From: a virus
Direction: 5' to 3' (one strand)
IMG/VR virus record: IMGVR_UViG_3300025085_000240
Span: 1-20,832 of that record
Length of the DNA: 20,832 bases
Positions 126 to 17,531 of the stretch are shown piece after piece (the stretch's first letter is position 1; each line of letters begins with the position of its first letter). The notes beneath the pieces are model-generated. The model did no database searches. It was not told where the DNA came from and saw only the letters and a program-made list of their open reading frames with translations. The position numbers and the translations under genes were made by a program.

Positions 126-3100
126 TTAAATTGTAAACGGAATCAATTCTTCTGCAGCGTTAATGGAATTTGATCCACTATAAAGACTACAACCAGTAAA
201 TTGAGTTGTTGTCTTACCAGTATATTGAATTACAGTTCCGCCACTAGTAAATAGATATCCTTCCGTAGGGAAATATGTTGTATCTTGAACAACAATGTTT
301 CCGCCAATAGTTCCAGAAGAAGAACTAATTGCAACTGGATTTTGAATAGATGGTGGCATCAAATTAAATTTATCTCCTGCTAAAGTATAACTAGAATCAG
401 ATCTTTCCTCAAAATCTTTTATAGTAAGTGCTCTAAAGTAAATATCAATTTCTGCAAGTGATAATCCAGAAACACCTGCTGTTCCGTCATCAAATATACC
501 CTCAAAATGTCCTATGGTATGACCAACATTAGTTTTAGTGTAGTTTCCTACGTACTCTGCATCAAGACCAAATATTGAATTATTGACATAGATTATAGTT
601 CCATCACGTTTAACAACTCCATAATCATCAAGAATACTTACAAATCCATTCAATCTAGTATTGATTGGATTCTCAATAAAGAGACTCTCTTGATATCCAT
701 CAACTACACCACCAGGAGGTGGAGTTAGAACTACCTCAGTTGCTGCTTTTTGAATATCAAGTTGAATTTGAACTGATTGTAATGTGTTGACAACCTCTAC
801 ATCTGAAGTAGTTGTAAAAGAAGATACAATATTAAAAGATGGTTCTAATTTGTAAACTACGAAAGTATTGACGTTAGAAATAGACTCAACATTAATTTGT
901 GGTTGTAATTGTGCTTCGATTACATTAGAAATTGTAGTGCTTACTACCGGTGTTTCAATTTGAAATTCAGTTTCTCTTTCAGTTCTGCCAACGTTAGCAC
1001 CACCTTTAACACTAACAATAGTAGACTCAGATTCGACCAGAGTGACACCACTGAATGCCACGGATACTGGATCTGGAATCTGTCTCAAGAACGTTCCAGC
1101 AATCCACTCTTGAGCAGTAGTATTCTGTTGACCTCTTTCTATTTTTAAGAAACGATCATTGATCTTGCGGAAATATTGAATAATTTCTGATCCAACAATA
1201 AGATATCCGCTGTTCTTGAACTTATCTGTATTGCCAACATAAACGACGGTATCATTAATACCAAGTGTGGTATCCAAGAACGCACCAACTTCAAAGTAAT
1301 TGATGTTAGTAAGAGCAGTATTGTTTATAACATTGTTAACACTAGAAGTTATCTCTCGTGTTGCTGATGCAGTGAGTGTAGAAGAAGATTCGATATCAAC
1401 AATGTATGGAGTGTTGATACGAATATAAACTTCCGTTCCATTGTAGAATGTATCAATTGGTGCTGCTTGCTGTTCTGTATGGAAAGTAGTTAATATTTCA
1501 TCAAGTTCTGCAGATAAATCTTCACTAACTGCTTCAGAAGCAGGTGTAATTATATCAACCAGTTTGGTGTCAATTACAAGAGGACTATCAATTAATGTTG
1601 AAGTAATAGTTGCAACACTTGCTGCTTGATTACCAACAATACTAATAGCAGAAATTACATTCAGTCCCAAAGACTGCTCTAAATTCATCGCAACGTTGAT
1701 TAACGATACTCCAATATCAGTTTCTTCTAAGATATCATAACGTCTAGCAACAACAACTTTTGGTGCTTTTGTGTATCCAGATCCACCTTCGATTAGTTCT
1801 ACACTAATAACTTGTCCTTTACTGACGATGACTTGTGCTCTAGCTCCACCGCCTTCTCCATTTTCGGGAATAAAATTAATTACTGGTGGGGTATAATATT
1901 GATAAGCAGTCGGTTGTGTGATGGGATCATAACTACGTTGATTCCAATCTAAATCTACAACAGCACCATTTTCAATTTTAGCAACAATACTAAGACCTTC
2001 GCCTCTTGTTACTCCATTATATGCTTGAACTTCAACTTGACCAAAATAACTATTTGATACTTGCTGTTGAGTTCTTTGTTCTTTACTTGTTAGTTTTGCT
2101 GGTATTTGTTTAATTTTTCTGAACTTATCCTCACCCTCAACTTTTATTAGACTATTGCTTGAGAGATTTATAAATGGATTTCTATATGTCTTTCTCCAAT
2201 AAGTACCACGCCAGTTTTGATCAGTTCCTCTAAGAATAGATCTGCCATCATTATCGGTTTCGTATACAATTTCCGACCCAGATGAATCTAAACCAACAGC
2301 AGTGTTAACATCATATCTCCTTGCTACAGAAAAATATACATCTCTTCCTTGAATTAAATCACACTTATAACCAAATACTTTCAAACTTAAAGTTGATCCA
2401 GAAACTTTCGGATCACTAACTTGACCAATCACATTATATGTTCCATCATCATTGATTTGGTAAGCATGAATTGGGGATCCTCTTCTAATACCCATCCATC
2501 CATTTCCTAAGAAAGTGGAAAGACCTGACGTAGTTTCTAAATTAATAACGCCATTTAAGTAATATACATCTGGATTGAAATCATACAAATTCAAAACTTG
2601 TCCAACATTTCTACCATAAAGGTATCTCATGTCAACTTTCATTTGTTTTGTAATTGGAAAATTGAAGAATATATTTGGACCAGATACTGTATACGATTCA
2701 ATATTTTTTTGAAGAACTCCGTCAATAAACACCAACAAGTAATCTGACTCTTCAACGTTAACAACCGTAAGATCTTCTAAGTCAAGAATTAAGAATGGTC
2801 CTGTCCTGACATTATTGACTAAATTCTTGTCCAGAGTCATTCTCTTGTAATTGCCAATGCCAATACCAACAACTTTCTCAACAGCTGTTGGTTCTCCTAA
2901 TGTTCTAGCACCAGAATATTGATCCCAAATAGGAGCAACATCAAATTTAAGTATATTTGGAATTACTGTTCTGTCGATATAATATGAATCATCCCCTGGA
3001 TAATCTGCATTATACTTAGTCTCTTGTAATACAGCATTAATTGATAGTAATAGATTCTCGTCTTGTTCTGTAATAACAGAACTTCCGTCTTCCCAATATA

Positions 3101-6100
3101 ATTCAAACTCTTTAGTTTCGCCGTCAATATAATCAGGAAGAGTTTTGGCGACTTCTACTTTGTTTAAAACATCGTCAAGATTGTTATAGAGAGAGTTAAT
3201 AGACGAAATTACATCATTACATTCTTGTGATGGAAGCAATGGATCTGGTAGTATATTGTAGTTTGAATATGTGGGAGTAGTAGACCAATATCCAGGTTTG
3301 TTTGGATTGATGTTTACAATTTCCACTACACCTGTTCCCTTAGCAATGATATCTTTTACAATATCAATCATAGTAGTAATTGTAGATTCAACATCGGCAC
3401 ATACAGGAAATTCCGAGTCTACAAATACTGTATTGTCTACGTAAGGTGTGATGCTAGTGTAAGTTCCACTTGTTAAAGTGTTCCTCATTGCCAGTATCAT
3501 GAGATCTCTTAACCTCTCCCATGCTGCAACTGCAGCAGTAACTTCCAATCCAGTCAGATAAGTTAATTCTTCTCCATATGGATATCCACGATTTGTGTAG
3601 TATAGTTGAGCAAATTCGACAATTTTAGCATTTCCACCAAATCTTAAGTGATAAACAATATCATCAATTAAAAATCCTAGATCTCTAGCACACTTTGCTT
3701 TGTCTGATACAGGTAGAGCATAGTTAGCATATACAAATTCACTTACCTCTTCCTGTAAATATTCTTTATTGTTGGCAATTAGTGTTGAAGCATCATAGTA
3801 AGTTCCATTATTAATTCCACTGAAGAAGAAAGTTGCACTATCAGTAGAAGCAAATGATGTAGGCACCTGTAAAACGTCATTTGGATTTATAGAATATTGA
3901 TCTCCTGGTTGAACTGCACCAGTACTAGTTCCCAAAACTTCACTTCCGGAAGAAGATCCACTAAGGAAAGTAGTAGATGAAGATGCTCCACCGGCACTAC
4001 CACCCGAGTTTGCTAGTGCTGGTTTTGATAATGTTACTTGTGTTCTGCTATCAATAGAAACAATAACTGTATCTGGACTGTATGCTCTACCTGCACTAAT
4101 TGTCATACCAATAGCAATATTATCAGTATTGCTAACTGTCACTTCCCTAGAACCTTGAATAAAGACTACAGATTCTTCAACATAATCCCAATTTCTAATT
4201 GCTAAATTTGCTAGATTTGTAGCATATTTGAAAATTGATAAAGATTCTACAGAATTATTCTTGATATAGTCTGAACTAGTAGCAAAAATATTCGCATAAT
4301 CTACAAGTTTGCTATTTCCCCCAAATCGAATATCGTGTTGATAAGCATCAAGAATATAACCAATATCAATAATATAGTCATCTAATTTTGTACTCCAATC
4401 CAAAGAACTATAGTATTGCTTTCCATAACCAATCGATTCTTCAATAATAAATTGCTTGTTTCTATCAATTTGATTAGCAGCATCAATCCATGTTCCACTA
4501 CGTTGGAAAATGTTTCTTAATTTTTTGAGATAACGAGTATTATACTGACTGTCTTTAAAGTAGAAATTTCTTCCAACAAACTTTGTTCCTTTATATGGAG
4601 ATGTATCACTAATATTATTTCCTGTTAATTTATTTCCAGGACCTAATGGAGGTGCGCTAAAAATAATATTATCTCCACTTACGGTATATGCAACTCCTGG
4701 TTCTTGTAAAATTCCATCAAGAGTGATAATCAAACTTTCTGCATTAACTGGAGTGAATGCTAGTCCTGTGTCATCCAATACCTGGAAAGATGTCGTTCCT
4801 TGCAACCTACCATCAGTATCAAAATATCCATCAAATGGAGCACTGAGAGTAAAGGAGAAAGCACGAGTTTCATTGAAGTTAAATTCTGAAGTAGCAGCAG
4901 AACCATTACCAGTACGTATTCTTGTGTTCTCAACAGTTTGAATAGTTTGAGTTGTTACCTGTTTTGTACTTTCAACAGTAATTTTATTTTTATTTGGATC
5001 CCACAGTTGAATAATCGAGAAAGTATCTGCTTTTCTTTCTCCAGCAGATGGCATTTCTGATTTTGCATCTGTCTCAATATCAACTTGACCAAATAATTTA
5101 AATCCAGCAGGGTGTGTAGTAGATTTAATTAAATCTCTCCACTGCTCAATAGAAGTTTTTGATTTAACAACGTAAGAGTAATCCTGATAGAAAAAACTAT
5201 CAGTTAATTTTTGATTTGCTGCACCAAGTCTTCCTTTATCGGAAGTATAATAACCTAAGTTGTCATATGTAGCTTTAGTTGTTGTCTTGAATGTTGTGAT
5301 AAATGCTTTCTTAACTACGCCAGAAGCACCAGATATAAAACCAACTACAGAAATATTTTCTCTAATGATACCGACAACTTTCTCAATTTTAATTAAATTT
5401 GATCCTTGTCTGTATTCAGAAACTACTGCTCTAGAAACTTCTATGCCATTAATTGATTGAGTTAAAATTTCTCCTTTTTGATATACACCATTGAAATTTT
5501 TCAATGCTAATGTATATTTTGAAGTTACTGTTGATGCTACAGTTTTGTCTAAATGATATCCAGCTCCATTGTTTATGATTCGTACACTTTGTGGGATTCC
5601 AATACTTTCACTTTCAGCATATAAACTCACTGCGGATTCAATAATTACAATTTCAGGAGCATATGTGTATCCAACACCGGGATTGTTAACGGTAATTGAG
5701 AATAACTTACCATTACGTTGAATTACTTTAAAATCTGCGCCGGTTCCATCAGAATTAATAATGATAACTTTAGGATTTACATAATTAGATCCAACATTGT
5801 CTATGTTGACACCAGTAATAATATTAGCAAATGTATCAAATAAAACTGTTGCTGAACCTCTATATGATTCTGAAGGATCACAACCTAAAACTAATGGAAC
5901 TTTTTTGTAGTTTTGTCCTAAATTTGTTATTTTAATACCGTTGATTTTGCCAATAGCAAATTGACCATTAGTGGTATATGAAATAGATCCAGAACCATCC
6001 CATAAAGGAGTACTCAAAACGTCATACACAAAACGATTTCGTGTGACATAGTTAAGTGTCTTTGTTCCTTGTAGTGGATCATCAATGACTTGCAAGTATG

Positions 6101-9100
6101 CTCCTTCTGCATTTACAATACCATTTTTATCAAAGTAATAAAAATTGAGGAAATCTGTTCCCACTTTAGTATCATAATTATTTTGTTCTAAAGCAGATCC
6201 AAATCCAAATTTAATTGTTGTTGATGATCCAGAATTGCCTGGTAAAATTGTAGTAGCAAGTTTTTCCGTAGTTAATAGATTATAACTCTTGCTTGGACTC
6301 ATATCAAAATATGTTCCAATCAAAGAAGAGTGTGAAGTATCAAAAATGTACTTATAAAACTCTTGTACATTGATATTTGGATTTGGTGTAAATACAGTAT
6401 TGTCTTCTGAGAATTCAAATTTGAAATCAATATCTCCAACCGAGACAATAGATACTAATCTTTGTTGACTACTTTCATCAAAAAATGATGTACTCAATGT
6501 TATTGCTTCTGCTTCTCGCTTATCGATACTATAATCAAATACGATAGTAGCATTTTGGGTATTTAAATCATACGACTGAATATATCCACTACCATTTGCA
6601 GAAGTAATTTTAAAATTATCCGAAAAATTATATCTAGGTTTGTATAAAGAAATAGATGCTCCATCATAATGATCTACAGCAATAGTTTCTTCTCTGGATC
6701 TAATTACTGTTAGTGTATTATTATTGATAGCAGAAATTTCTACAATCTCGGATCCAATACTTAATAAATCTCCTACAGCAAATCCTTTTGAAGTTTTAAC
6801 TTCAATAGTAGTAGCGTTGAATGAAACACCTGCATGATCAACATACAATGCTAATCTGGAAGAACTTAAAGATGCTCCTGATCTTTGTAGTTGATCATCA
6901 TCTACACCAAGATAATCTCCTCTCTTATAATCAGTACCACCATTTGTAATAGTGATATTATTAACAACTCCGGCAGCAGATACTGTAATGTTCGCAATAG
7001 CACCAGAACCAGAACCTCCTGTAATTGGAATATCAGTATATGTTCCTTCTGTATAGTCTGCTCCACCATTTAAAATAGAAAATCTACCAATACCATTAAA
7101 ATTAATTGTTGTTGTATTAGATGGAGGACTAAATGATACTTGCTGGTATAATCTTTTTCTGATATAATATGTTTTGGTTTTTGTAGAATCATCTGGAAAT
7201 ATATTAATATCAACAGAGTCTCCAATTGCTAATCCATGATCTTCTGTAGTCTCTACCAAAGCAACACTTTGGTTTACTTCAAATGGTTCTAAATTATCAC
7301 TCAACGAAACTAATGTAATAATTTTAGACCCAGATGTGTTGAAAAGATTATCTGACTGGATGTAATAATCATCATTAACAATCCATACACCAGATAATAC
7401 TTTAATAGTGACTGTGTTCTGCCTACTAGTTCCTTCTAAGATTTCTGCAGTAGCAATCGCTGGATTAACACCATCAGTTAAACTTAAGATGGCACCTTTA
7501 GTATAATTACTATCTTGGTCTATGGTAAGAATGAATGTTTTAATATCAGCAGAAAAAGTTCCAGTATTATTGAAAGTTCCTACTACATTTTTGAGTACAA
7601 TCAAATTATCATTGGAAACAGTTCCTACAATTGAACCCGATGCTCCACTTGCTGGTTGTCTTAATGTATCATCTACAAATAAGAAAGCATTTTGAATAGT
7701 TGTTAGTTTTACAACTTTATCTTCTTTACTCTGTAAGTAATTAACACCTTTTCCTTCAACTGAAGATACTAATGCATTGACATCTTTTCCTTCAGTTCCT
7801 GCATTATTAAAGTACAACTGCGAATTGACGGAAAAATTACTAGAAGAACTATCAATAACAACATTATCCACAGTTCCCGATCGTACTTCTGAAATAGTAG
7901 CTACTAATCCATCACCATTACCCAACATTCCGGGAGTAAAAAATCTTTTGGCATTTTTGGGAATATCGTTTTGATTAATTGTAGTAGTATAATTACTATC
8001 TACTGGTAGAGAATAATATTTGTCTCCCAAAACATATGGAAACTGTGGTACTTGACTACTATTAATAGTAATGAAATAAGCATATGTTCCATCGGGAAAA
8101 TCTGGGGTTATACAAAAACGACCATTGTTTTCATCTAAGGATCCACTTTTGTGTGAATAAACATAGTCATTGATAAAGGATCCTAATGGATACTCTATTG
8201 GCGAAGGACCATCTTGTCTATTTCCAGATAAAGAATAACTAGAAGTCATTCTTACAATTGATGAAGACTGATCCAATGGATTTTCATGTCCAAATGGACC
8301 ATAGATTGGATTGCCATCATAAGCAAAACCTAAAATAGGAGAATGTGTTTTGTTTGCTGGTTCGGTATCTGCAGAATTTAAATTATCATTTAATTGAATC
8401 CTAAGTGCTTTTGGATTCGCAACTTGACCATATCCATATTCGAGAACATTGTTTATATTTTCAAATACATAACCGTACTGCTTATCTAAATTTTCTTCTA
8501 ATTTAGAATAACGGTTTTTGTTCCATTCCTTTAGTAGTGGTGTTATTTCGGCACCTGTTCCGACAGGAATAATTTCTACTAGGATGTTTTGTTGTGTGTA
8601 TAATGTTCCACTTGCAACTTTAGTAAATTCTACAATAGATCCATCTCTATCAATTACTGTATTATATTCAGCAAATCTTCCTTTGCCAACTTTATCAGTA
8701 ATTCTTACAATAGGTGGTGTTGAATAAAATTTACCAGGATTTTCTACGACTATACTAGTTACTTCTCCGCCTGTTACAACTGCTCTAGCAACACCATCTC
8801 TTCCAGAAGTAATCTCTACAGTAGGAGTGACTGGGAATGCGATGTCTGTATCAACAATAATACTATCAACAACATTACCAACCATCTGTGCCCTTGCTCT
8901 TCCAGCAAGACCATCAACTACAACAAATGGAGGATTGACATATCCACGTCCTCTATTATCTACACGAATTTCTTCGAGTTTTCCGAAACGTAAACTTTCC
9001 GAATCTTTATATCCATAAATGGGAACACCATTTAATAAGATACCAACATCTCTTTTTTGCGTTTTGTAAATTTCTGTTGTTACTACAGGAGTTTTTCTGA

Positions 9101-10607
9101 GGACTCTAAGTATTTTTTGATCTTGGACAGGTTGTGTGATAATGGGACCATCAAAAATATTATATGATGGATAACTGGAAGATGTGATATAGTAATACTG
9201 ATCATCTGCAAAAATAGCAGATACATTATTAGAAATTCCAGCAAGTGATTGTTCTACTGGTGTATTAGTACTTGATGTTATTGATGTTCCAGTATCTTGA
9301 ATCCACCTAAGTTGATTAGTTCCAGTTTGAACAATTCTGGGATCTGATGTTTTAAATCCAGGTTGCGATACTTGTACAGTATCACCTGTAAACGAGTAAG
9401 GTTCTGAAACATCAGGCAAAGCATCATAAACAACACCCAAGGTTAGTAATGTAACATCAGAACCTTCGATTGTAACTGGTTTATAAACAAATTTACCTCG
9501 CAGATGCTCTACAGATAAACTTCTTTCACTAACAATAAATTGAGTTACTGTTTTATCAGAAAACTTAATAATTTCATTGCCAATTAAAATTTCTCCAATA
9601 GAACTCCATCCCATCGTAGAAAATACATTAACTCTATCACCTGCTCCAAGAGTTGGTGCTATGGTATTTTCTAATTTAGTTTTTGTTGAAATTTGAAATT
9701 CACCATTGACAGTTTCTGGAGCAACAACAATATTCCAGATTACTTCACCGTCAATTGTACCTTGAGCAATAACATTATCTACAGTAGCAGATGCATATCC
9801 ATAATCATCTGTTGGAGACTGTACTATTTTCTTGCCAATTAAGTCTTTTGGATTTCCTGATACTACTTTTACCTTAAGAGCATATACATTGATCCAATCA
9901 GATTCAGAGGATTTGTATGTAAATTCTCTTGGGTGGTATACTTCTGGTTTGTTTTCTACATCGTCAGATATAATAGTATTAAAAATAAATTTAATAGAAT
10001 CATCTGTTCCTTTTGCTTTGTAGAACTTCTGAATATTTTTAATCAGCGTTCTTTTATCTACCTCTCCTCTAAGATATTTTTCTGGGAATGATCCGAGGTA
10101 TTGATTTTCAAAATTTCTTACAAAAGCATATAAGAATAGATTACTGATGTTATAGACTTCAGCACCTTCTAAATGCTCTGTAGCAGTTGTACTAGAAAAA
10201 TTAGAAGCATTGTATAGATCTCCTAACTTAGTATTGCCGCTTACTCCTCTAGAGCAATTCAGCAATTGGTTATTGGTGCGACTTTCATAGAAAATAATTT
10301 CATCGTCAATTCTTACGTATCCATTTTTTTCTGGAAAAGACTGAGCATCTGCAAGAGTAATGATTGTATCACTAATGCTAATGTTAGCAATGATAGAATC
10401 TTTCTGATTAAGTAGATTTTTTTCGTAATAATCAATGTCAGCATATTTTTGAATGTTACTTAAAACATCCAAAGGACCACCTTGTACTTCCTGTGCTTCG
10501 TAATACTTCTCTACAAACTTACTAAACAGTTCATATTCAGAAGAAATAAATTCTGGAAGTTGTGATTCAATTAGAGTAGAAATTCTTTTAGTCTTTACAG
10601 AAGGCAT
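126..10607 (-). CDS. 7: Giant baseplate wedge protein in the gp7 position (3493 aa), YHYH domain and multiple internal repeats
   Basis: This intact frame fills half the window. Its place after gp25 and gp6 and before gp8 matches T4 gene 7, which is about 1030 aa in T4. Residues 14-60 (FSKFVEKYYE) and 185-220 (KAKGTDDSIKFIFN), followed by an IGKK segment near 257, resemble the C-terminal third of T4 gp7. Another gp7-like piece, W-RDLIK--HPAGF, sits near residue 1832. Between and beyond these are added domains: GxGY/P beta repeats (about 545-695, 1180-1230, 1555-1680, 2940-2955), a YHYH domain (about 750-865), five 'EII-Y' beta units, DG-LQ units (about 1955 and 2625), and two helical units sharing RFGGN (about 2026-2146 and 2269-2379). 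It starts five bases after the gp6 stop and is probably co-transcribed from the gp25 late promoter. The role is inferred to be baseplate wedge and possibly host contact. The gp7 label is less certain than the structural role. Confidence 0.7.
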   Translation of the reverse strand: MPSVKTKRISTLIESQLPEFISSEYELFSKFVEKYYEAQEVQGGPLDVLSNIQKYADIDYYEKNLLNQKDSIIANISISDTIITLADAQSFPEKNGYVRIDDEIIFYESRTNNQLLNCSRGVSGNTKLGDLYNASNFSSTTATEHLEGAEVYNISNLFLYAFVRNFENQYLGSFPEKYLRGEVDKRTLIKNIQKFYKAKGTDDSIKFIFNTIISDDVENKPEVYHPREFTYKSSESDWINVYALKVKVVSGNPKDLIGKKIVQSPTDDYGYASATVDNVIAQGTIDGEVIWNIVVAPETVNGEFQISTKTKLENTIAPTLGAGDRVNVFSTMGWSSIGEILIGNEIIKFSDKTVTQFIVSERSLSVEHLRGKFVYKPVTIEGSDVTLLTLGVVYDALPDVSEPYSFTGDTVQVSQPGFKTSDPRIVQTGTNQLRWIQDTGTSITSSTNTPVEQSLAGISNNVSAIFADDQYYYITSSSYPSYNIFDGPIITQPVQDQKILRVLRKTPVVTTEIYKTQKRDVGILLNGVPIYGYKDSESLRFGKLEEIRVDNRGRGYVNPPFVVVDGLAGRARAQMVGNVVDSIIVDTDIAFPVTPTVEITSGRDGVARAVVTGGEVTSIVVENPGKFYSTPPIVRITDKVGKGRFAEYNTVIDRDGSIVEFTKVASGTLYTQQNILVEIIPVGTGAEITPLLKEWNKNRYSKLEENLDKQYGYVFENINNVLEYGYGQVANPKALRIQLNDNLNSADTEPANKTHSPILGFAYDGNPIYGPFGHENPLDQSSSIVRMTSSYSLSGNRQDGPSPIEYPLGSFINDYVYSHKSGSLDENNGRFCITPDFPDGTYAYFITINSSQVPQFPYVLGDKYYSLPVDSNYTTTINQNDIPKNAKRFFTPGMLGNGDGLVATISEVRSGTVDNVVIDSSSSNFSVNSQLYFNNAGTEGKDVNALVSSVEGKGVNYLQSKEDKVVKLTTIQNAFLFVDDTLRQPASGASGSIVGTVSNDNLIVLKNVVGTFNNTGTFSADIKTFILTIDQDSNYTKGAILSLTDGVNPAIATAEILEGTSRQNTVTIKVLSGVWIVNDDYYIQSDNLFNTSGSKIITLVSLSDNLEPFEVNQSVALVETTEDHGLAIGDSVDINIFPDDSTKTKTYYIRKRLYQQVSFSPPSNTTTINFNGIGRFSILNGGADYTEGTYTDIPITGGSGSGAIANITVSAAGVVNNITITNGGTDYKRGDYLGVDDDQLQRSGASLSSSRLALYVDHAGVSFNATTIEVKTSKGFAVGDLLSIGSEIVEISAINNNTLTVIRSREETIAVDHYDGASISLYKPRYNFSDNFKITSANGSGYIQSYDLNTQNATIVFDYSIDKREAEAITLSTSFFDESSQQRLVSIVSVGDIDFKFEFSEDNTVFTPNPNINVQEFYKYIFDTSHSSLIGTYFDMSPSKSYNLLTTEKLATTILPGNSGSSTTIKFGFGSALEQNNYDTKVGTDFLNFYYFDKNGIVNAEGAYLQVIDDPLQGTKTLNYVTRNRFVYDVLSTPLWDGSGSISYTTNGQFAIGKINGIKITNLGQNYKKVPLVLGCDPSESYRGSATVLFDTFANIITGVNIDNVGSNYVNPKVIIINSDGTGADFKVIQRNGKLFSITVNNPGVGYTYAPEIVIIESAVSLYAESESIGIPQSVRIINNGAGYHLDKTVASTVTSKYTLALKNFNGVYQKGEILTQSINGIEVSRAVVSEYRQGSNLIKIEKVVGIIRENISVVGFISGASGVVKKAFITTFKTTTKATYDNLGYYTSDKGRLGAANQKLTDSFFYQDYSYVVKSKTSIEQWRDLIKSTTHPAGFKLFGQVDIETDAKSEMPSAGERKADTFSIIQLWDPNKNKITVESTKQVTTQTIQTVENTRIRTGNGSAATSEFNFNETRAFSFTLSAPFDGYFDTDGRLQGTTSFQVLDDTGLAFTPVNAESLIITLDGILQEPGVAYTVSGDNIIFSAPPLGPGNKLTGNNISDTSPYKGTKFVGRNFYFKDSQYNTRYLKKLRNIFQRSGTWIDAANQIDRNKQFIIEESIGYGKQYYSSLDWSTKLDDYIIDIGYILDAYQHDIRFGGNSKLVDYANIFATSSDYIKNNSVESLSIFKYATNLANLAIRNWDYVEESVVFIQGSREVTVSNTDNIAIGMTISAGRAYSPDTVIVSIDSRTQVTLSKPALANSGGSAGGASSSTTFLSGSSSGSEVLGTSTGAVQPGDQYSINPNDVLQVPTSFASTDSATFFFSGINNGTYYDASTLIANNKEYLQEEVSEFVYANYALPVSDKAKCARDLGFLIDDIVYHLRFGGNAKIVEFAQLYYTNRGYPYGEELTYLTGLEVTAAVAAWERLRDLMILAMRNTLTSGTYTSITPYVDNTVFVDSEFPVCADVESTITTMIDIVKDIIAKGTGVVEIVNINPNKPGYWSTTPTYSNYNILPDPLLPSQECNDVISSINSLYNNLDDVLNKVEVAKTLPDYIDGETKEFELYWEDGSSVITEQDENLLLSINAVLQETKYNADYPGDDSYYIDRTVIPNILKFDVAPIWDQYSGARTLGEPTAVEKVVGIGIGNYKRMTLDKNLVNNVRTGPFLILDLEDLTVVNVEESDYLLVFIDGVLQKNIESYTVSGPNIFFNFPITKQMKVDMRYLYGRNVGQVLNLYDFNPDVYYLNGVINLETTSGLSTFLGNGWMGIRRGSPIHAYQINDDGTYNVIGQVSDPKVSGSTLSLKVFGYKCDLIQGRDVYFSVARRYDVNTAVGLDSSGSEIVYETDNDGRSILRGTDQNWRGTYWRKTYRNPFINLSSNSLIKVEGEDKFRKIKQIPAKLTSKEQRTQQQVSNSYFGQVEVQAYNGVTRGEGLSIVAKIENGAVVDLDWNQRSYDPITQPTAYQYYTPPVINFIPENGEGGGARAQVIVSKGQVISVELIEGGSGYTKAPKVVVARRYDILEETDIGVSLINVAMNLEQSLGLNVISAISIVGNQAASVATITSTLIDSPLVIDTKLVDIITPASEAVSEDLSAELDEILTTFHTEQQAAPIDTFYNGTEVYIRINTPYIVDIESSSTLTASATREITSSVNNVINNTALTNINYFEVGAFLDTTLGINDTVVYVGNTDKFKNSGYLIVGSEIIQYFRKINDRFLKIERGQQNTTAQEWIAGTFLRQIPDPVSVAFSGVTLVESESTIVSVKGGANVGRTERETEFQIETPVVSTTISNVIEAQLQPQINVESISNVNTFVVYKLEPSFNIVSSFTTTSDVEVVNTLQSVQIQLDIQKAATEVVLTPPPGGVVDGYQESLFIENPINTRLNGFVSILDDYGVVKRDGTIIYVNNSIFGLDAEYVGNYTKTNVGHTIGHFEGIFDDGTAGVSGLSLAEIDIYFRALTIKDFEERSDSSYTLAGDKFNLMPPSIQNPVAISSSSGTIGGNIVVQDTTYFPTEGYLFTSGGTVIQYTGKTTTQFTGCSLYSGSNSINAAEELIPFTI

Positions 10608-10612
10608 TTACT

Positions 10613-12409
10613 TTACTCTTTGTATGCAGTGAACGATGAATTGGCAACGTCAACGTCAAGGTATACCTCACGGAGTGCCTTGATATCATTAAGAAGTGGT
10701 TTTACTCTAACAGAAATGCGGTTGTCGAAAAATGATCCTTTTATGATAGTAAGAGCATACATAATCAACTCTCCTTTTTCATAATCAATATCTCCAACAT
10801 TACTGTCTAGAACAACTTTTTCGCCTGTTACGCTATCTATTCTATATAGGACAATTTTGCCATCCCTATCTTCCAAATATACATCAAATGTAGGGTATTC
10901 TGTTACCCTAAAACCAGTTGACGACAGAGTAGGTTCTTCACAATCTTTATCGAAAGCATTCTGGAAACATACTTCATAATAGAAAGTGGAATTGAGACTA
11001 GGATAAAAATCCTTTCTCATAGTTACTTCTGTTAAATTTGAGTTGATTGATGGATCTGCGTCATCAATAACACTAACTAATTTACTGAATCTAAACTTAC
11101 CATTAAATTTTTCAATATCTGAAGTATCGAGATATGACTGCACAGAATTAATTGTCTTATCTCTAATCTGTGCTGGTTTTAAATCTGTTGCCTCGCCACT
11201 ATAATAAACCTTAGAAGTCAACTCAACAAATAAAATTGATGGATCTACAATAACTGGTCTAACAGAAGCAACCATATACTTCTTTAGATCTTCGATAATT
11301 TCTTGTTTTGTTAATGATGTGAGGAAAGATGCATCTTTTGGTTTTAATACAATAAAAACTTTACCATACTCTGGTGGATCTTGGTCTTCGCCACCAAAAA
11401 TAATAATATCACTTACTGATGGATATACTTTACGAATGATAGCAGAATAATCTTGAGCAGTTACAGCACGATCCTGTGTGCCATACATTTTTGGAGCATT
11501 TCTCTTGATGTTCTTAATAGACTCTTTATCTTCTCCACCGGAAGAAGCATTTACATTAGTAATGGCAGTACTAAAAGAGTTTGGAGATACACCATTTGGA
11601 TTTTCAATAACACCAGAAAACACAAATGTCCTAACACCGTTAGACTCTGGTCCTGATGTTGTAAGGTAAGATACTTCTACTCTAGATCCATTATCAACTT
11701 TTTTGCCTAAAACACCATCGCCTAATAAAATTTCGTACCTATCATCTTCGATCTCTTCAATGAAGAAAACTTTTGATGTAGAATCAACGTTTAAGATGTT
11801 ATCAGCAACTAGATACGATTCGTTAAAATTGCCACCAGAAGGATATACTTTTACTTTAATAGTATTGGTATCGATGTTTGGGTTGTCAAGAACAAACCTT
11901 TGAGATGTTAATGATGTGTTAACAGTAAACGTATTGAGAATTTGTGTTCCTTCTCTAATCTCAACATTATCAAATGTTGCAACGTTGTTAACTACTTGTC
12001 CTGTTACATCCTCTAATGTGATGTATTGATAAATGTTGTTGTCAAACGAACTGATAAACCCTGTTCCTTTCTTCAGTAGGAGTTCAGTATCAGTTGTTGG
12101 TGACCCATAAGTTATATTGAAAGAAACATAGGCAGTAGGAGAGGTGATACCTTTGGGTCTGTATCCTAATTGCTTCGCAATCGCTACTACGTTGTCTCTT
12201 AAGGTGGCAGAATCAATGAATAGTTCATTGACTACCAGATTAGCATTAAACGCCGTATAATAGGTATTATAGGCAAGTGTATCAATTAATGTTGAAAGGA
12301 CCGATCCATCAAAATCATAGTCAGTAAAATCTGACTGTGCTCTGATATATTCTTTCAGAGCAACTTTGATATCTTCAAAGTCTAAATTAGCAACCTGAGT
12401 ATATGGCAT
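10613..12409 (-). CDS. 6: Baseplate wedge protein gp6 (baseplate J-like)
   Basis: The 598-aa product is close in length to T4 gp6 (about 660 aa), the dimeric wedge protein that forms the inner baseplate ring. The N-terminus (FEDIKVALKEYI, then DFDGSVLSTLIDTLAYNTYY) is typical of gp6/baseplate J proteins. So is the central block at about residues 290-390, with GGEDKES, APKMYGTQDRAVTAQDY and KYMVASVRPVIVDP. The start ATG at 12409 overlaps the gp25 stop as TAATG, which implies translational coupling. The gene ends five bases before the gp7-position gene. It probably shares the late transcript that begins at 12826-12833. I see no truncation or frameshift. Confidence 0.93.
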   Translation of the reverse strand: MPYTQVANLDFEDIKVALKEYIRAQSDFTDYDFDGSVLSTLIDTLAYNTYYTAFNANLVVNELFIDSATLRDNVVAIAKQLGYRPKGITSPTAYVSFNITYGSPTTDTELLLKKGTGFISSFDNNIYQYITLEDVTGQVVNNVATFDNVEIREGTQILNTFTVNTSLTSQRFVLDNPNIDTNTIKVKVYPSGGNFNESYLVADNILNVDSTSKVFFIEEIEDDRYEILLGDGVLGKKVDNGSRVEVSYLTTSGPESNGVRTFVFSGVIENPNGVSPNSFSTAITNVNASSGGEDKESIKNIKRNAPKMYGTQDRAVTAQDYSAIIRKVYPSVSDIIIFGGEDQDPPEYGKVFIVLKPKDASFLTSLTKQEIIEDLKKYMVASVRPVIVDPSILFVELTSKVYYSGEATDLKPAQIRDKTINSVQSYLDTSDIEKFNGKFRFSKLVSVIDDADPSINSNLTEVTMRKDFYPSLNSTFYYEVCFQNAFDKDCEEPTLSSTGFRVTEYPTFDVYLEDRDGKIVLYRIDSVTGEKVVLDSNVGDIDYEKGELIMYALTIIKGSFFDNRISVRVKPLLNDIKALREVYLDVDVANSSFTAYKE

Positions 12410-12801
12410 TATCGTGTGCGCTCTAAGAAGAATTCTACTGCTACTGGTGTATCGTCTCTACCTACAATAGTATAAGATAATTCAACTTCGTATCCATTAC
12501 TCATATCATCTGGTATACAGTTGATAGTATTAACACGAATTCGTGGTTCGTAACGATTCAATACATCTGCAATTTCTGATCTGAGAATACCAGCACTACC
12601 ATAATCTAATGGTTCAAATAATATATTTTGAATATCACAACCTAATTCCGGTTGAAATGGTCTTTCTCCCTTCCTAGTAAGAAGTAAGGCAGTAATCGAT
12701 TGAACGATAGCTGCCTTATCTTTTACCGTTACTAAATCATCACTTACAGGATGCTTCTTAAAGGTAATGCTCAGATCTTTAAATGTCTGAAAGGTCGGCA
12801 T
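12409..12801 (-). CDS. 25: Baseplate wedge protein gp25
   Basis: The 130-aa length matches the gp25/gpW family (T4 gp25 is 132 aa). The family signature TRKGERPFQPELGCD is at residues 42-56 and YEPRI at 84-88, in the order seen in T4 gp25. The protein resembles a tail-sheath fragment and nucleates sheath assembly on the baseplate wedge. A late-promoter octamer lies 24 bases upstream. No Shine-Dalgarno sequence is visible before the ATG, although the frame and length leave little doubt about the start. Its stop overlaps the gp6 start as TAATG. In T4, gene 25 is away from genes 6-8; here it is joined to them. Confidence 0.95.
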   Translation of the reverse strand: MPTFQTFKDLSITFKKHPVSDDLVTVKDKAAIVQSITALLLTRKGERPFQPELGCDIQNILFEPLDYGSAGILRSEIADVLNRYEPRIRVNTINCIPDDMSNGYEVELSYTIVGRDDTPVAVEFFLERTR

Positions 12802-12833: not shown

Positions 12834-13023
12834 ACTTACCAACGAATCCATCCGCCCATTCCTGAGAATCAAAGATCTCTTCATTCTTTGCTTTGTTGCG
12901 ATTACGTTTCGCTGACATGTTCAGATACTTATCACTATCAGTCTCGGTGATGAGTGTCATGCCTTCATTAACAAAGTCTTCACCTTTGTCAACTGATCCG
13001 TCTAAACGATTAGGGTGTCCCAT
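12832..13023 (-). CDS. Conserved 63-aa cyanophage-type protein
   Basis: I recognise no domain. The product begins MGHPNRLDGSVDKGEDFVNE, is charged and hydrophilic, and has a basic patch (SAKRNRNKAK, residues 37-46). The start at 13023 is chosen because GGAGAAACAAA precedes this ATG; a longer frame to 13071 has no comparable signal. The gene overlaps the end of the 219-aa gene by 14 bases, so the two are probably translated from one message. Its stop lies within the gp25 late promoter. Function unknown. Confidence 0.75.
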   Translation of the reverse strand: MGHPNRLDGSVDKGEDFVNEGMTLITETDSDKYLNMSAKRNRNKAKNEEIFDSQEWADGFVGK

Positions 13024-13669
13024 TTTGTTTCTCCTGTTGTGTTTGCCAAAAATAATCATCGGTGTCTCCAAGGCGTCCCCAGTCGATTCCTGCCTCTACT
13101 TGGTATTCTATAGTAGATACTTTAAAGTCAGGGAACTTGGGTTCCTCGGGGGTAATAGAGAGGTCATACAGACGCATCCTGTTATTAGGATACAATGCAT
13201 ACTGACCATTGTTCAATGCAATGCAATTATGTGATTTGTGCTCTTGCGGCACTTCACTTACATTATTATCTATTACATCCGGATTTGCATGGTAGTTATC
13301 AAGTGTAAACAAGTATTGCCCTCTCATAAGACCATGATCTCTAGTAAAGACCTCACAGTCCATTGATGAGACAAATCCTTTGTTCATACATGCAACACCA
13401 TAATCCATACAATTCCAGAATTGTAGGTTCTCCAAACTCATGTCTGTGACTGGAGTTTCAGGGGACCGTACAAATGCACTAATAGGAAGTTTGTCATACA
13501 TTGCACCATATTCTGGCAAGTATGTCTCAAAGTAAAAAGCACGCCCAGGTATGCTTTTAGCAGCAACCCAGACACCCTCAACAAACTCCCCATGCCCATC
13601 TTGATGATCTCGTAAGTACTCCCTACGAACCCATACTTTCTCAGCAGGAAGATTGCAAATTAAATTCAT
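13010..13669 (-). CDS. Conserved 219-aa cyanophage-type protein of unknown function
   Basis: The product begins MNLICNLPAEKVWVRREYLR and carries GRAFYFETYLPEYGAMYDKLPISAF at about residues 42-66, then LENLQFWNCMDYG and a C-terminal half with NNGQYALYPNNRMRLYD. I recall this pattern from uncharacterised cyanophage proteins found close to the baseplate and PAAR genes. It has no signal peptide, membrane segment or catalytic motif I can name. The start forms an ATGA overlap with the stop of the 49-aa basic gene, and its end overlaps the 63-aa gene by 14 bases, giving a compact three-gene operon behind the promoter at 13846-13874. Abundant Trp, Tyr and Phe residues suggest a compact globular fold. 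Confidence 0.85.
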   Translation of the reverse strand: MNLICNLPAEKVWVRREYLRDHQDGHGEFVEGVWVAAKSIPGRAFYFETYLPEYGAMYDKLPISAFVRSPETPVTDMSLENLQFWNCMDYGVACMNKGFVSSMDCEVFTRDHGLMRGQYLFTLDNYHANPDVIDNNVSEVPQEHKSHNCIALNNGQYALYPNNRMRLYDLSITPEEPKFPDFKVSTIEYQVEAGIDWGRLGDTDDYFWQTQQEKQNGTP

Positions 13670-13906: not shown

Positions 13907-14224
13907 CTACCCTGCTATGACCTTTGCATACCCTGTGCTAATACTACCCAAATCAGCACTATCACCTACTCTCGCAATCCCTTTACCACCTACTAAAACT
14001 CTCCCAGATCCAGCATTAATAACTTGACCAGGATGTGGAACACATGGTGGTGCTGGTGGAGGACTGGGATTCGTGATTGTGTGCGCCTGTAAGGGGTCTC
14101 CTACTACTGCAACGGGGAATCCACCCACTATGACCGTTGCAGTCCCTCCTAGGATCTGTACAGTCGTATCACAACCATGCCCAGTTGTTACACTATCGGT
14201 GCCCTTTCTTGCTACTGCTCCCAT
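13907..14224 (-). CDS. PAAR-domain spike tip protein (gp5.4-like)
   Basis: This 105-aa protein has the PAAR pattern: short Gly/Val-rich repeats (TATVIVGGFPVAVVGDPLQ, then SGRVLVGGKGIARVGD) with His and Cys residues suitable for metal binding (H16, C18, H48, C61, H64). A proline loop (PSPPPAPP) separates the two halves. PAAR proteins form a metal-stabilised cone that sharpens the tail spike; in T4 the equivalent is gp5.4 (97 aa), sitting on the gp5 needle and encoded just before gene 6. GAGGA lies seven bases before the start. The ATG overlaps the stop of the coiled-coil gene as TAATG, so the two are probably coupled. Confidence 0.93.
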   Translation of the reverse strand: MGAVARKGTDSVTTGHGCDTTVQILGGTATVIVGGFPVAVVGDPLQAHTITNPSPPPAPPCVPHPGQVINAGSGRVLVGGKGIARVGDSADLGSISTGYAKVIAG

Positions 14225-16333: not shown

Positions 16334-16537
16334 CTAGTCAGATTGGTTGGATTGGTCCACGTCTAGCATGATTTCCATGGCAAGATCACACAGGTCATCG
16401 TCTGCCTCGAATGGGCAGATCTGTGAGTCTACGAAATCCATCACCATGTCAAAGTCTGCCTCAGGGTTGCTGATACAGAAACCACGGATGCCAGCGGCGA
16501 TGTGGTGCAATTCGAGAGCAGTCATTTTGTCGTTCAT
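16334..16537 (-). CDS. Small acidic protein, 67 aa, unknown function
   Basis: The product starts MNDKMTALELHHIAAGIRGF and continues CISNPEADFDMVMDFVDSQIC and DDDLCDLAMEIMLDVDQSNQSD. It is strongly acidic and predicted helical, with three Cys. The start at 16537 directly abuts the repeated promoter-like element, leaving almost no leader; a second ATG (MTALEL) is four codons downstream. A small acidic protein expressed early could act by protein binding, but nothing in the sequence identifies a partner. Confidence 0.75.
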   Translation of the reverse strand: MNDKMTALELHHIAAGIRGFCISNPEADFDMVMDFVDSQICPFEADDDLCDLAMEIMLDVDQSNQSD

Positions 16538-16553
16538 GTGTCTACAATACAGG
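16538..16553 (-). promoter_or_regulatory. Promoter-like element TGTATTGTAGACA abutting a start codon (copy 1)
   Basis: The minus strand reads CCTGTATTGTAGACAC and runs straight into the ATG of the 67-aa gene. It matches the copies at 16732 and 17044 except for one base. The -35 position sixteen bases upstream of TATTGT (CCCATT) is poor compared with the other two copies. Confidence 0.55.
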
Positions 16554-16572
16554 ATGATGGGGCAGAATGGGG

Positions 16573-16731
16573 TCAGAGACCATTAAGAAAATCTGCCATT
16601 GCCTCTTGATACTCCTCAAAGGTAGCGAAGCGATCCTTGAAACGGTCAGGCACCTCACCCGTGCTAGGTTGTGCTTTAGGCAGGTCGCGACCCTTGGAGA
16701 GGATCTGCTGTTCGTAGGGGTTGTTTGTCAT
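16573..16731 (-). CDS. Short protein, 52 aa, unknown function
   Basis: The frame reads MTNNPYEQQILSKGRDLPKA and ends RFATFEEYQEAMADFLNGL. It is closed by TGA at 16573-16575. There is no other Met candidate near the N-terminus, and the ATG lies directly beside the promoter-like element at 16732, as in the neighbouring gene. The composition and the conserved layout support a real gene although it is short. Function unknown. Confidence 0.65.
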   Translation of the reverse strand: MTNNPYEQQILSKGRDLPKAQPSTGEVPDRFKDRFATFEEYQEAMADFLNGL

Positions 16732-16765
16732 GTGTATACAATACAGGATCTGAGGCAGAAATCAA
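16732..16765 (-). promoter_or_regulatory. Promoter TTGATT-N16-TATTGTATAC abutting a start codon (copy 2)
   Basis: The minus strand has TTGATT (16760-16765), sixteen bases, then TATTGT (16738-16743) inside CCTGTATTGTATACAC. TGTAT-TGT-ATACA is a perfect five-base dyad. The ATG of the 52-aa gene is the next base after the element, so transcription starting about six or seven bases past the -10 would give a leaderless mRNA. Confidence 0.6.
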
Positions 16766-16817
16766 GCGATAGTGGACGGTTTGAGAATTGGAGCGAAGCG
16801 GCTGACCTGGATAACAT

Positions 16818-17027
16818 TTAGTGGACCTCATCTAGCAGCAGTTTGTGACATCTATCTGCCTCTTCTAATGTATCATCATCTAGTTCATCAAATTCGACAT
16901 ACTCGTAAGCACCACGGTTTGATTCAACATTGCCATCAGATAGCAACGGGTGATACATAAGAATTCTCTGGTGATTACCATCCAATGTGTACACTAACTC
17001 GTTTGCCTTTGAATAGATGAAAACCAT
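16818..17027 (-). CDS. Small phage protein, 69 aa, unknown function
   Basis: The product starts MVFIYSKANELVYTLDGNHQ, continues RILMYHPLLSDG, and ends with an acidic helix (FDELDDDTLEEADRCHKLLLDE). The start at 17027 is the first ATG after the promoter element at 17044-17076; a longer frame from a GTG at 17057 would run across the -10 box. It looks like a small beta domain with an acidic tail. An 86-base gap follows, with two copies of GTCCACTA (after the stop and before the next promoter). Confidence 0.75.
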   Translation of the reverse strand: MVFIYSKANELVYTLDGNHQRILMYHPLLSDGNVESNRGAYEYVEFDELDDDTLEEADRCHKLLLDEVH

Positions 17028-17043
17028 GAAAAAATCCCGAACA

Positions 17044-17076
17044 TGTATACAATACACGATCGGGATGGAAAATCAA
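17044..17076 (-). promoter_or_regulatory. Promoter TTGATT-N16-TATTGTATAC (copy 3)
   Basis: TTGATT (17071-17076), a sixteen-base spacer and TATTGT (17049-17054) repeat the geometry of copy 2 exactly, with the same TGTATTGTATACA dyad. The next in-frame ATG is 17 bases beyond the element, so this gene could have a short leader. Confidence 0.6.
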
Positions 17077-17092
17077 GGACTAGTATGCCAGT

Positions 17093-17248
17093 TCAATAAG
17101 TGTCCTCATACTCATTGATTTCTCGTTTAAACTTTGATACCTTCTTTTTAGATGAACGTTTGACGTTTTTCACATCATATCCAAAGTCTTCAAAGTCATC
17201 GATAAATTGTTGCTTTGGATTGTCAGATTGATTGGATCTTTTACTCAT
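17093..17248 (-). CDS. Short basic protein, 51 aa, unknown function
   Basis: The frame reads MSKRSNQSDNPKQQFIDDFE, then DFGYDVKNVKRSSKKKVSKFKRE and an acidic end. The middle is Lys/Arg-rich and flanked by acidic segments, a pattern of small phage proteins that contact nucleic acid or RNA polymerase, although nothing specific can be named. A possible late octamer (CTAAATA) at 17287-17293 lies 38 bases upstream. It lies in a 200-base gap that no longer gene fills. Confidence 0.65.
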   Translation of the reverse strand: MSKRSNQSDNPKQQFIDDFEDFGYDVKNVKRSSKKKVSKFKREINEYEDTY

Positions 17249-17285
17249 TGTCTTGTTTGAATTGTTAACTCAATTGAATGCAAGA

Positions 17286-17531
17286 TTATTTAGATTCAAC
17301 AATCAAACCCTCTTTGATTTGATTGTGAAGAAACTTACCAACTGATCCTCCAGTCTTTAATTCAATCGATATCAGTTCTTTACACAAAGTATCTTCAAAT
17401 ACTTGTGTATTATCACAGTTAAATGTATATTCTTTGTCTTTATTACTATTATAGGTAATAATAACACTATTATCAGTGATATTAATAGAATTAATTGCTG
17501 TACTGATCAAATTGTCGTACATCTTAGTCAT
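17286..17531 (-). CDS. KTSC-like small protein, 81 aa
   Basis: The product begins MTKMYDNLISTAINSINITD and continues with beta strands (NSVIITYNSNKDKEYTFNC) and a C-terminal GGSVGKFLHNQIKEG. The pattern 'Y..n.KeYtF...' followed by SVGKF...IK resembles the KTSC domain, found in phage and bacterial proteins of mostly unknown role. ATG at 17531 lacks a Shine-Dalgarno sequence; MYDN three codons later is an alternative. Its stop codon overlaps a candidate late octamer for the next gene. The KTSC reading is by eye only. Confidence 0.75.
   Translation of the reverse strand: MTKMYDNLISTAINSINITDNSVIITYNSNKDKEYTFNCDNTQVFEDTLCKELISIELKTGGSVGKFLHNQIKEGLIVESK
17287..17293 (-). promoter_or_regulatory. 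Candidate late octamer before the 51-aa gene
   Basis: The minus strand reads TCTAAATAATC, matching CTAAATA, 38 bases upstream of the ATG at 17248. The match lies across the last codons and stop of the KTSC-like gene (TCT AAA TAA), so it may be a coincidence of coding sequence. Confidence 0.35.

Follow-up and report, generated by a model that had tools for sequence, protein, structure and literature searches.

The minus strand of a 20.8-kb viral fragment (the whole stretch of DNA analysed here, called the window below) carries an open reading frame of 3,493 codons beginning with ATG (P0001, positions 126..10607), and the locus raises the question of what a baseplate gene of this length encodes. 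A preliminary description, silent on the strand, proposed a baseplate wedge protein related to T4 gp7 that had expanded at an internal site. We conclude, with a probability of roughly 0.88, that the giant ORF encodes the gp7 of a T4-like cyanophage, its core, equivalent to the C-terminal third of T4 gp7, lying in three pieces, and the inserted and appended sequence probably making up an arm.

A giant gene at the gp7 position

Over residues 4-3493 the protein belongs to phrog_4406, a family annotated as "virion structural protein" of cyanophages. Its neighbors on the same strand are gp6 (10613..12409; PF21379, 7.5e-18; phrog_219) and gp25 (12409..12801; PF04965, 1.5e-16), both baseplate wedge proteins. 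The order gp25-gp6-giant ORF is common to the window, P-SSM4, P-HM1, and S-PM2. The giant gene is followed by gp8 in P-HM1 and S-PM2, while the window ends before the gp8 position; the arrangement in relatives reads gp25-gp6-gp7-(x)-gp8-VrlC. In T4, too, gp7 comes after gp25 and gp6, with gp8 next. Two further minus-strand genes lie upstream of gp25 or near it: a 219-residue protein (13010-13669) that matches phrog_3704, "ferredoxin", at 8e-120 without a Pfam match, a label that looks doubtful, and, upstream of gp25, a 105-residue PAAR-motif protein (13907-14224; phrog_281, 1e-16), with a similarly annotated protein near the same place in P-HM1.

The unusual length of the ORF, and nothing else, might suggest several genes joined by an error of assembly or annotation. 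The nearest isolates, S-CAM4 and ACG-2014j, show about 90-95% identity to the window in the parts tested, and the ORF is of equal length and content in isolates and viral contigs, with 3,494 residues in S-CAM4-like phages, 3,494 in ACG-2014i, and 3,495 in ACG-2014e. A still larger homologue, the 6,619-residue, 724-kDa "baseplate wedge initiator" of S-SZBM1, was detected in virions by mass spectrometry through 71 peptides (PMC9146016). Independent genomes have thus already refuted an artefact, to which we give practically no credence. Also found in virions by mass spectrometry was ORF 122 of S-CREM2 (PMC10665884), which lies directly after the gp6 position.

A gp7 core in three pieces

We built a hidden Markov model from compact gp7 cores of metagenomic viruses (alignment A1), including neither the window nor T4, and computed its E-values for a search space of 10^6. 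The model matches the window protein at residues 6-60 (5e-9), 161-332 (4e-19), and 1663-1854 (4e-18), in that order, and T4 gp7 at 1.6e-7. Profile-profile comparison by hhalign, run with the compact-core profile against T4 gp7, gave a probability of 97.5 and an E-value of 8e-12 over T4 residues 641-906. Identity in the T4 gp7 matches is remote, at 18-20%. The two methods agree beyond chance with the initial claim of two gp7-like segments in T4 order. The spacing claimed for them, about 150 residues in T4 and about 1630 here, also stood: KGTDDSIKF at residue 199 and HPAGF at residue 1832 are 1,633 residues apart in the window protein, as compared with 146 between KGIEASYKF (738) and HPVGF (884) in T4 gp7, and HPAGF is followed by 1,661 residues where about 1650 had been estimated. 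Of the motifs that had been placed within the first 220 residues, KGTDDSIKF does fall there; IGKK, near residue 258, is slightly beyond that limit.

The core is divided as follows. Piece A (residues 1-60; 10428..10607, minus strand, as are all features below) is helical, runs through FSKFVEKYYE to YADID, and contains the model match at 6-60. Piece B (about 159-317; 9657..10133) holds KGTDDSIKF and the beta barrel of domain V and corresponds to the match at 161-332. Piece C (about 1781-1853; 5049..5267), which runs from FFYQDYSYVVKS to WRDLIKSTTHPAGFKLFG, is recognized by the match at 1663-1854 and by the c2 profile. Pieces A and B are separated by insert 1, a small beta domain at about residues 61-158 (10134..10427; FPxxGYVRIDDEIIFY...RGVSGNT) that is absent from Ochrobactrum phage OC and viral contigs L042 and L049, and is found again in the window protein at residues 323-376, 3113-3174, and 3426-3488. 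Because this domain interrupts the first helical part, there are three core pieces; the giant insertion of the preliminary description is confirmed, and its single split is not. Insert 2, the giant one, spans about residues 318-1780 (about 1,460 residues; 5268..9656), with boundaries taken from alignment with L042, OC, and T4. It enters where the beta barrel ends, before the helix that carries YxYVxxS...HPAGF, and includes a YHYH domain (PF14240, E = 4e-30) at residues 751-852 (8052..8357). The C-terminal extension occupies about residues 1854-3493 (about 1,640 residues; 129..5048). Relative to T4 gp7 (PDB 5IV5, 5HX2; Pfam PF21428, PF21427), the core fold and its order over T4 641-906 are the same, but here inserts of about 98 and about 1,460 residues break up the core, and about 1,640 more residues come after it.

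T4 gp7 residues 1-640 have no counterpart in the window protein, whose core begins at residue 6, as the preliminary description had held, and the ORF has no match to the Pfam models Gp7_5th and Gp7_6th. In this comparison residues 1-640 and domain VI belong to T4 only. Since the matched compact relatives also lack the N-terminal domains and domain VI, these are not taken as defining the wider gp7 family. A phmmer search of PDB with the whole window protein found no gp7, and PF23786, scoring below its cut-off on residues 1798-1839, was set aside; the bridge from the window to T4 gp7 is provided solely by profiles of compact relatives. The fold of the core was examined in a template-free model of a natural compact relative rather than of the window sequence. 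The three best matches among 350,542 PDB chains were gp7 structures, from a KP1-like phage and T4 (E = 2.3e-11, 9.4e-10, and 9.9e-10; Z = 9.4, 9.3, and 8.5), with the next, unrelated rows at a Z of about 6. Mean pLDDT in this model is 56, near 80 in the beta barrel and below 50 in the HPAGF part, and we therefore infer the packing of the window's separated segments from homology to T4.

According to one published view, cyano- and pelagimyophages lack T4 gp7 and have VrlC in its place (PMC7029224), which would make the window protein an unrelated tail protein. VrlC is indeed encoded just downstream in relatives. However, it is present there in addition, after gp8, while the window ORF occupies the gp7 gene position and independent profile and fold matches both lead to T4 gp7 641-906. 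It is very unlikely that the published reading is right; the statement of absence is contradicted by the profile evidence. The orthologue is already named gp7 or baseplate wedge initiator in several database records, and we found no published description of a split gp7 or of its modules.

Graded growth among relatives

Identification of the window protein as a gp7 allows its size to be compared across the family. Direct orthologues include those of P-SSM4 (7,312 residues), P-HM1 (4,446), and S-CRM01 (1,454), in which the core is split where tested, and the S-SZBM1 protein is listed as another; content and size of insert and extension differ from those in the window. The same core occurs in Rhizobium phage RHph_I1_18 (528 residues), Ochrobactrum phage OC (631), L042, and L049, where the insert measures about 8 to 250 residues as against about 1,460 in the window. 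Phages of Pelagibacter, Methylophilales, and Sinorhizobium also have the core.

We measured insert size as the distance from the end of the barrel to the HPAGF block. L042 and L049 have only 8-9 residues there, and three further relatives (L057, L077, L087) about 100-110. RHph_I1_18 comes next with about 245 and Melnitz with about 300; phiM12 has more than 700 and S-CRM01 more than 900. The window and S-PM2 reach about 1,460-1,490, P-HM1 more than 2,000, and P-SSM4 more than 2,700. Modules of the GGxGY type are common to small and large inserts. Since the inserts are shortest in the compact forms and such modules are shared across the range, the cyanophage form is most simply viewed as derived and expanded. 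The proposed expansion at an internal site is thereby upheld, compact relatives having as few as about 8 residues there. Growth of gp7 is a graded series and not one event, and the protein has in addition another insertion and an extended C-terminus. In P-SSM4 gp7 (18147-40085 of the sequence analysed), the first insert (residues 116-617) is enlarged as well, to about 500 residues, so that the core accepts inserts at two sites at least.

Phycobiliprotein-fold modules in the C-terminal extension

The preliminary description did not mention that the C-terminal extension contains two modules related by profile to phycobiliproteins. Module 1 (residues 2035-2171; 4095..4505) is recognized by the A2 profile (E = 6e-16), carries the motif DDYIIDIG, and lacks the chromophore Cys; judged by its sequence, it is a degenerate copy. 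Module 2 (residues 2264-2423; 3339..3818), which contains KC-x-RD, is identified by profile and by predicted structure. In the window protein, residues 2289-2344 match phycocyanin alpha weakly (phmmer against PDB, E = 0.095). A 12-row profile of the module improved this to 2.2e-4, all matches being phycobiliproteins, and a 46-row profile to 3.2e-6, with phycobiliproteins in 54 of 55 matches and more phycoerythrins, along with allophycocyanin, now included. A segment of S-CREM1 gp7, searched against 18,950 NCBIfam families, hit five models, all of phycobiliproteins (best apcB, 1.6e-9), and phycobiliproteins only in PDB; the window module alone reached 0.029 against NCBIfam. PF00502 passes its cut-off in three phages, S-CREM1, S-PM2, and S-RIM32, and finds nothing in Melnitz, phiM12, and RHph_I1_18, which served as T4-like controls. 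The phage module profile, run on two whole cyanobacterial genomes, detected only CpcA (phycocyanin alpha) genes. Single module members match phycobiliprotein models weakly (phycocy_alpha in 10 of 46, best E = 5e-4), with a few unrelated NCBIfam models appearing once each.

The predicted structure of residues 2264-2470 has a pLDDT of 85. All 50 PDB matches listed for it are phycobiliproteins (Z = 13.6-15.8, rmsd 2.0-2.7 A), the best at Z = 15.8 and 2.6 A over 145 residues. Module 2 is thus predicted to have the globin-like phycobiliprotein fold. The fold is shared with phycoerythrin beta and phycocyanin alpha and beta (PF00502) over 136-145 residues at 15-18% identity. Model residues 1-159 align to about 30-177 of phycoerythrin beta; the match begins at residue 29-34 of the phycobiliprotein chains, so that residues 1-29, the region of alpha/beta pairing, are unmatched, and the modelled segment itself begins at window residue 2264. 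Unlike phycobiliproteins, the module sits inside a giant virion protein.

Searches by tblastn with three module queries against 50,697 phage records matched 148, 80, and 356 records, every one a cyanophage or a marine single-cell virus record. Genomes have up to 15 matches, spread over gp7 and other giant tail proteins; the S-SZBM1 protein has nine. We found no such module in RHph_I1_18 or OC. Confinement of the modules to cyanophages, when the gp7 core is more widely distributed, fits capture from the host. In two marine viral contigs (L283, L274) with at least five tandem copies, C-x-R-D reads C-x-D-D. We also note that the S-PM2 record (NC_006820, 8057-12884) puts 16 tRNA genes inside a giant tail gene in which ARAGORN found zero, with nine at 2883-4803; the annotated tRNA positions therefore seem shifted.

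Could the likeness reflect convergence on a common helical architecture, with a Cys that is merely structural? Helical models can reach a Z near 14 through a common arrangement, and the sequence match falls mainly within about 60 residues. Convergence would not be expected, however, to return one family in all 50 rows listed, to gain significance as the profile deepens, to yield 1.6e-9 for one S-CREM1 segment, to find CpcA alone in whole cyanobacterial genomes, or to be confined to cyanophages. We regard it as improbable, if somewhat less so than the absence of gp7. That the modules reuse a host fold in a structural or adhesive role is the interpretation we consider probable. The literature searched, which took in few subscription papers, yielded no published phycobiliprotein-like virion domain.

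The bilin site, CpeT, and light

Module 2 shares with phycobiliproteins a Cys-x-Arg-Asp bilin site and a second Cys. In profile alignments to phycocyanin alpha, Cys2306 (KCARD; 3690..3692) is the equivalent of the alpha84/beta82 bilin-attachment Cys. Cys2403 (3399..3401), just before the last helix and present in 33 of 46 relatives, is the positional equivalent of beta153/158, preceding the end of the aligned last helix by 19 residues, as does C153 of phycocyanin beta. Conservation counts from alignment A3 are inflated because many of its rows were fetched by KCxRD patterns; the modules of ten whole phage genomes were counted instead, though these too were collected with a profile built on A3, and with the window's two they make 55. 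The first Cys is kept in 49 of these, the Asp three residues on in 53, the full C-x-R-D in 33, and C-x-x-D without Arg in 16.

Of 20 module-bearing cyanophages, 19 yield a match over cut-off to the CpeT lyase family (PF06206) and one a marginal match; none over cut-off came from five cyanophages without modules or from five other phages. For the 25 cyanophages Fisher's exact test gives p = 1.1e-4; limited to T4-like phages that had been crudely dereplicated, it gives 1.3e-3. Both values come from related phages that are not independent cases. T-type lyases, among them the CpeT family, serve the Cys153 equivalent (PMC10452541). In S-CAM4 the gene immediately before a module-bearing tail gene of 4,057 codons is cpeT, which ends 290 bases ahead of it; S-PM2 has cpeT 1.4 kb upstream of a module-bearing tail gene of 3,779 codons. 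P-SSM4 encodes a CpeT-family ORF of 148 residues (within 16400-17300 of the sequence searched) that scores over the Pfam cut-off, where one review reports the gene absent. Bilin reductase (PF05996) was considered as a partner of the modules and rejected, since its occurrence does not track theirs: P-SSM2 and S-SSM7 have the reductase without modules, syn9 and S-PM2 modules without the reductase.

These observations invite a further reading, in which the modules are putative bilin binders loaded by the phage's CpeT-type lyase, and a pigmented tail may act in light-dependent adsorption. Such adsorption is reported for several cyanomyoviruses (PMC2984593), and the module carrier P-HM2 hardly adsorbs in the dark (PMC7112961). 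Both Cys positions in module 2, conservation of the first Cys and its Asp, the association with CpeT, the known Cys153 specificity of T-type lyases, and the placement of cpeT in S-CAM4 and S-PM2 all point the same way. Against this, the Cys is absent from the window's module 1, the Arg is missing from the C-x-x-D modules, P-SSM4 has cpeT while its three tail modules are each missing both bilin Cys residues, P-SSM2 has a reductase and no module, reductases at large do not follow the modules, kinship among cyanophages weakens the CpeT association, and cpeT may instead serve host phycoerythrin. The use of bilin genes in Prochlorococcus phages has been described as unclear (PMC2984593). We consider pigment binding unlikely, though a reading to be taken seriously and far less improbable than convergence. 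A shade more doubtful is the proposal that phage CpeT, with PebS or PcyA in Prochlorococcus phages, might serve putative chromophore-bearing modules in the virion's own baseplate and tail proteins and not only the host antenna, the pigment aiding light-dependent adsorption.

A model for the expanded wedge and its implications

Returning to gp7 as the preferred identity of the giant protein, the reassembled core would, as in T4, join two gp6 chains and gp25 into each of the six wedges. The giant insert would emerge from the core where the domain V barrel has its outer end and, together with the C-terminal extension, could form a large decorated arm at the rim of the baseplate for contact with the host. 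Such an arm may project outward and touch the cell, and the phycobiliprotein-fold modules, taken from the cyanobacterial host, would have been reused in it.

With modules added at one internal site and at its C-terminus, then, a central baseplate protein can expand from about 460 to 7,312 residues, and the published statement that gp7 is absent is corrected for these abundant marine phages. The modules link three questions: the reason for which cyanophages have genes for bilins and bilin lyases even where the host has no phycobilisome, the way in which light can govern adsorption when the virion is metabolically inert, and the role of the giant tail proteins of cyanophages. Domains resembling the host antenna, located in the tail, raise the testable question of whether a virus tail may bind pigment and sense light.
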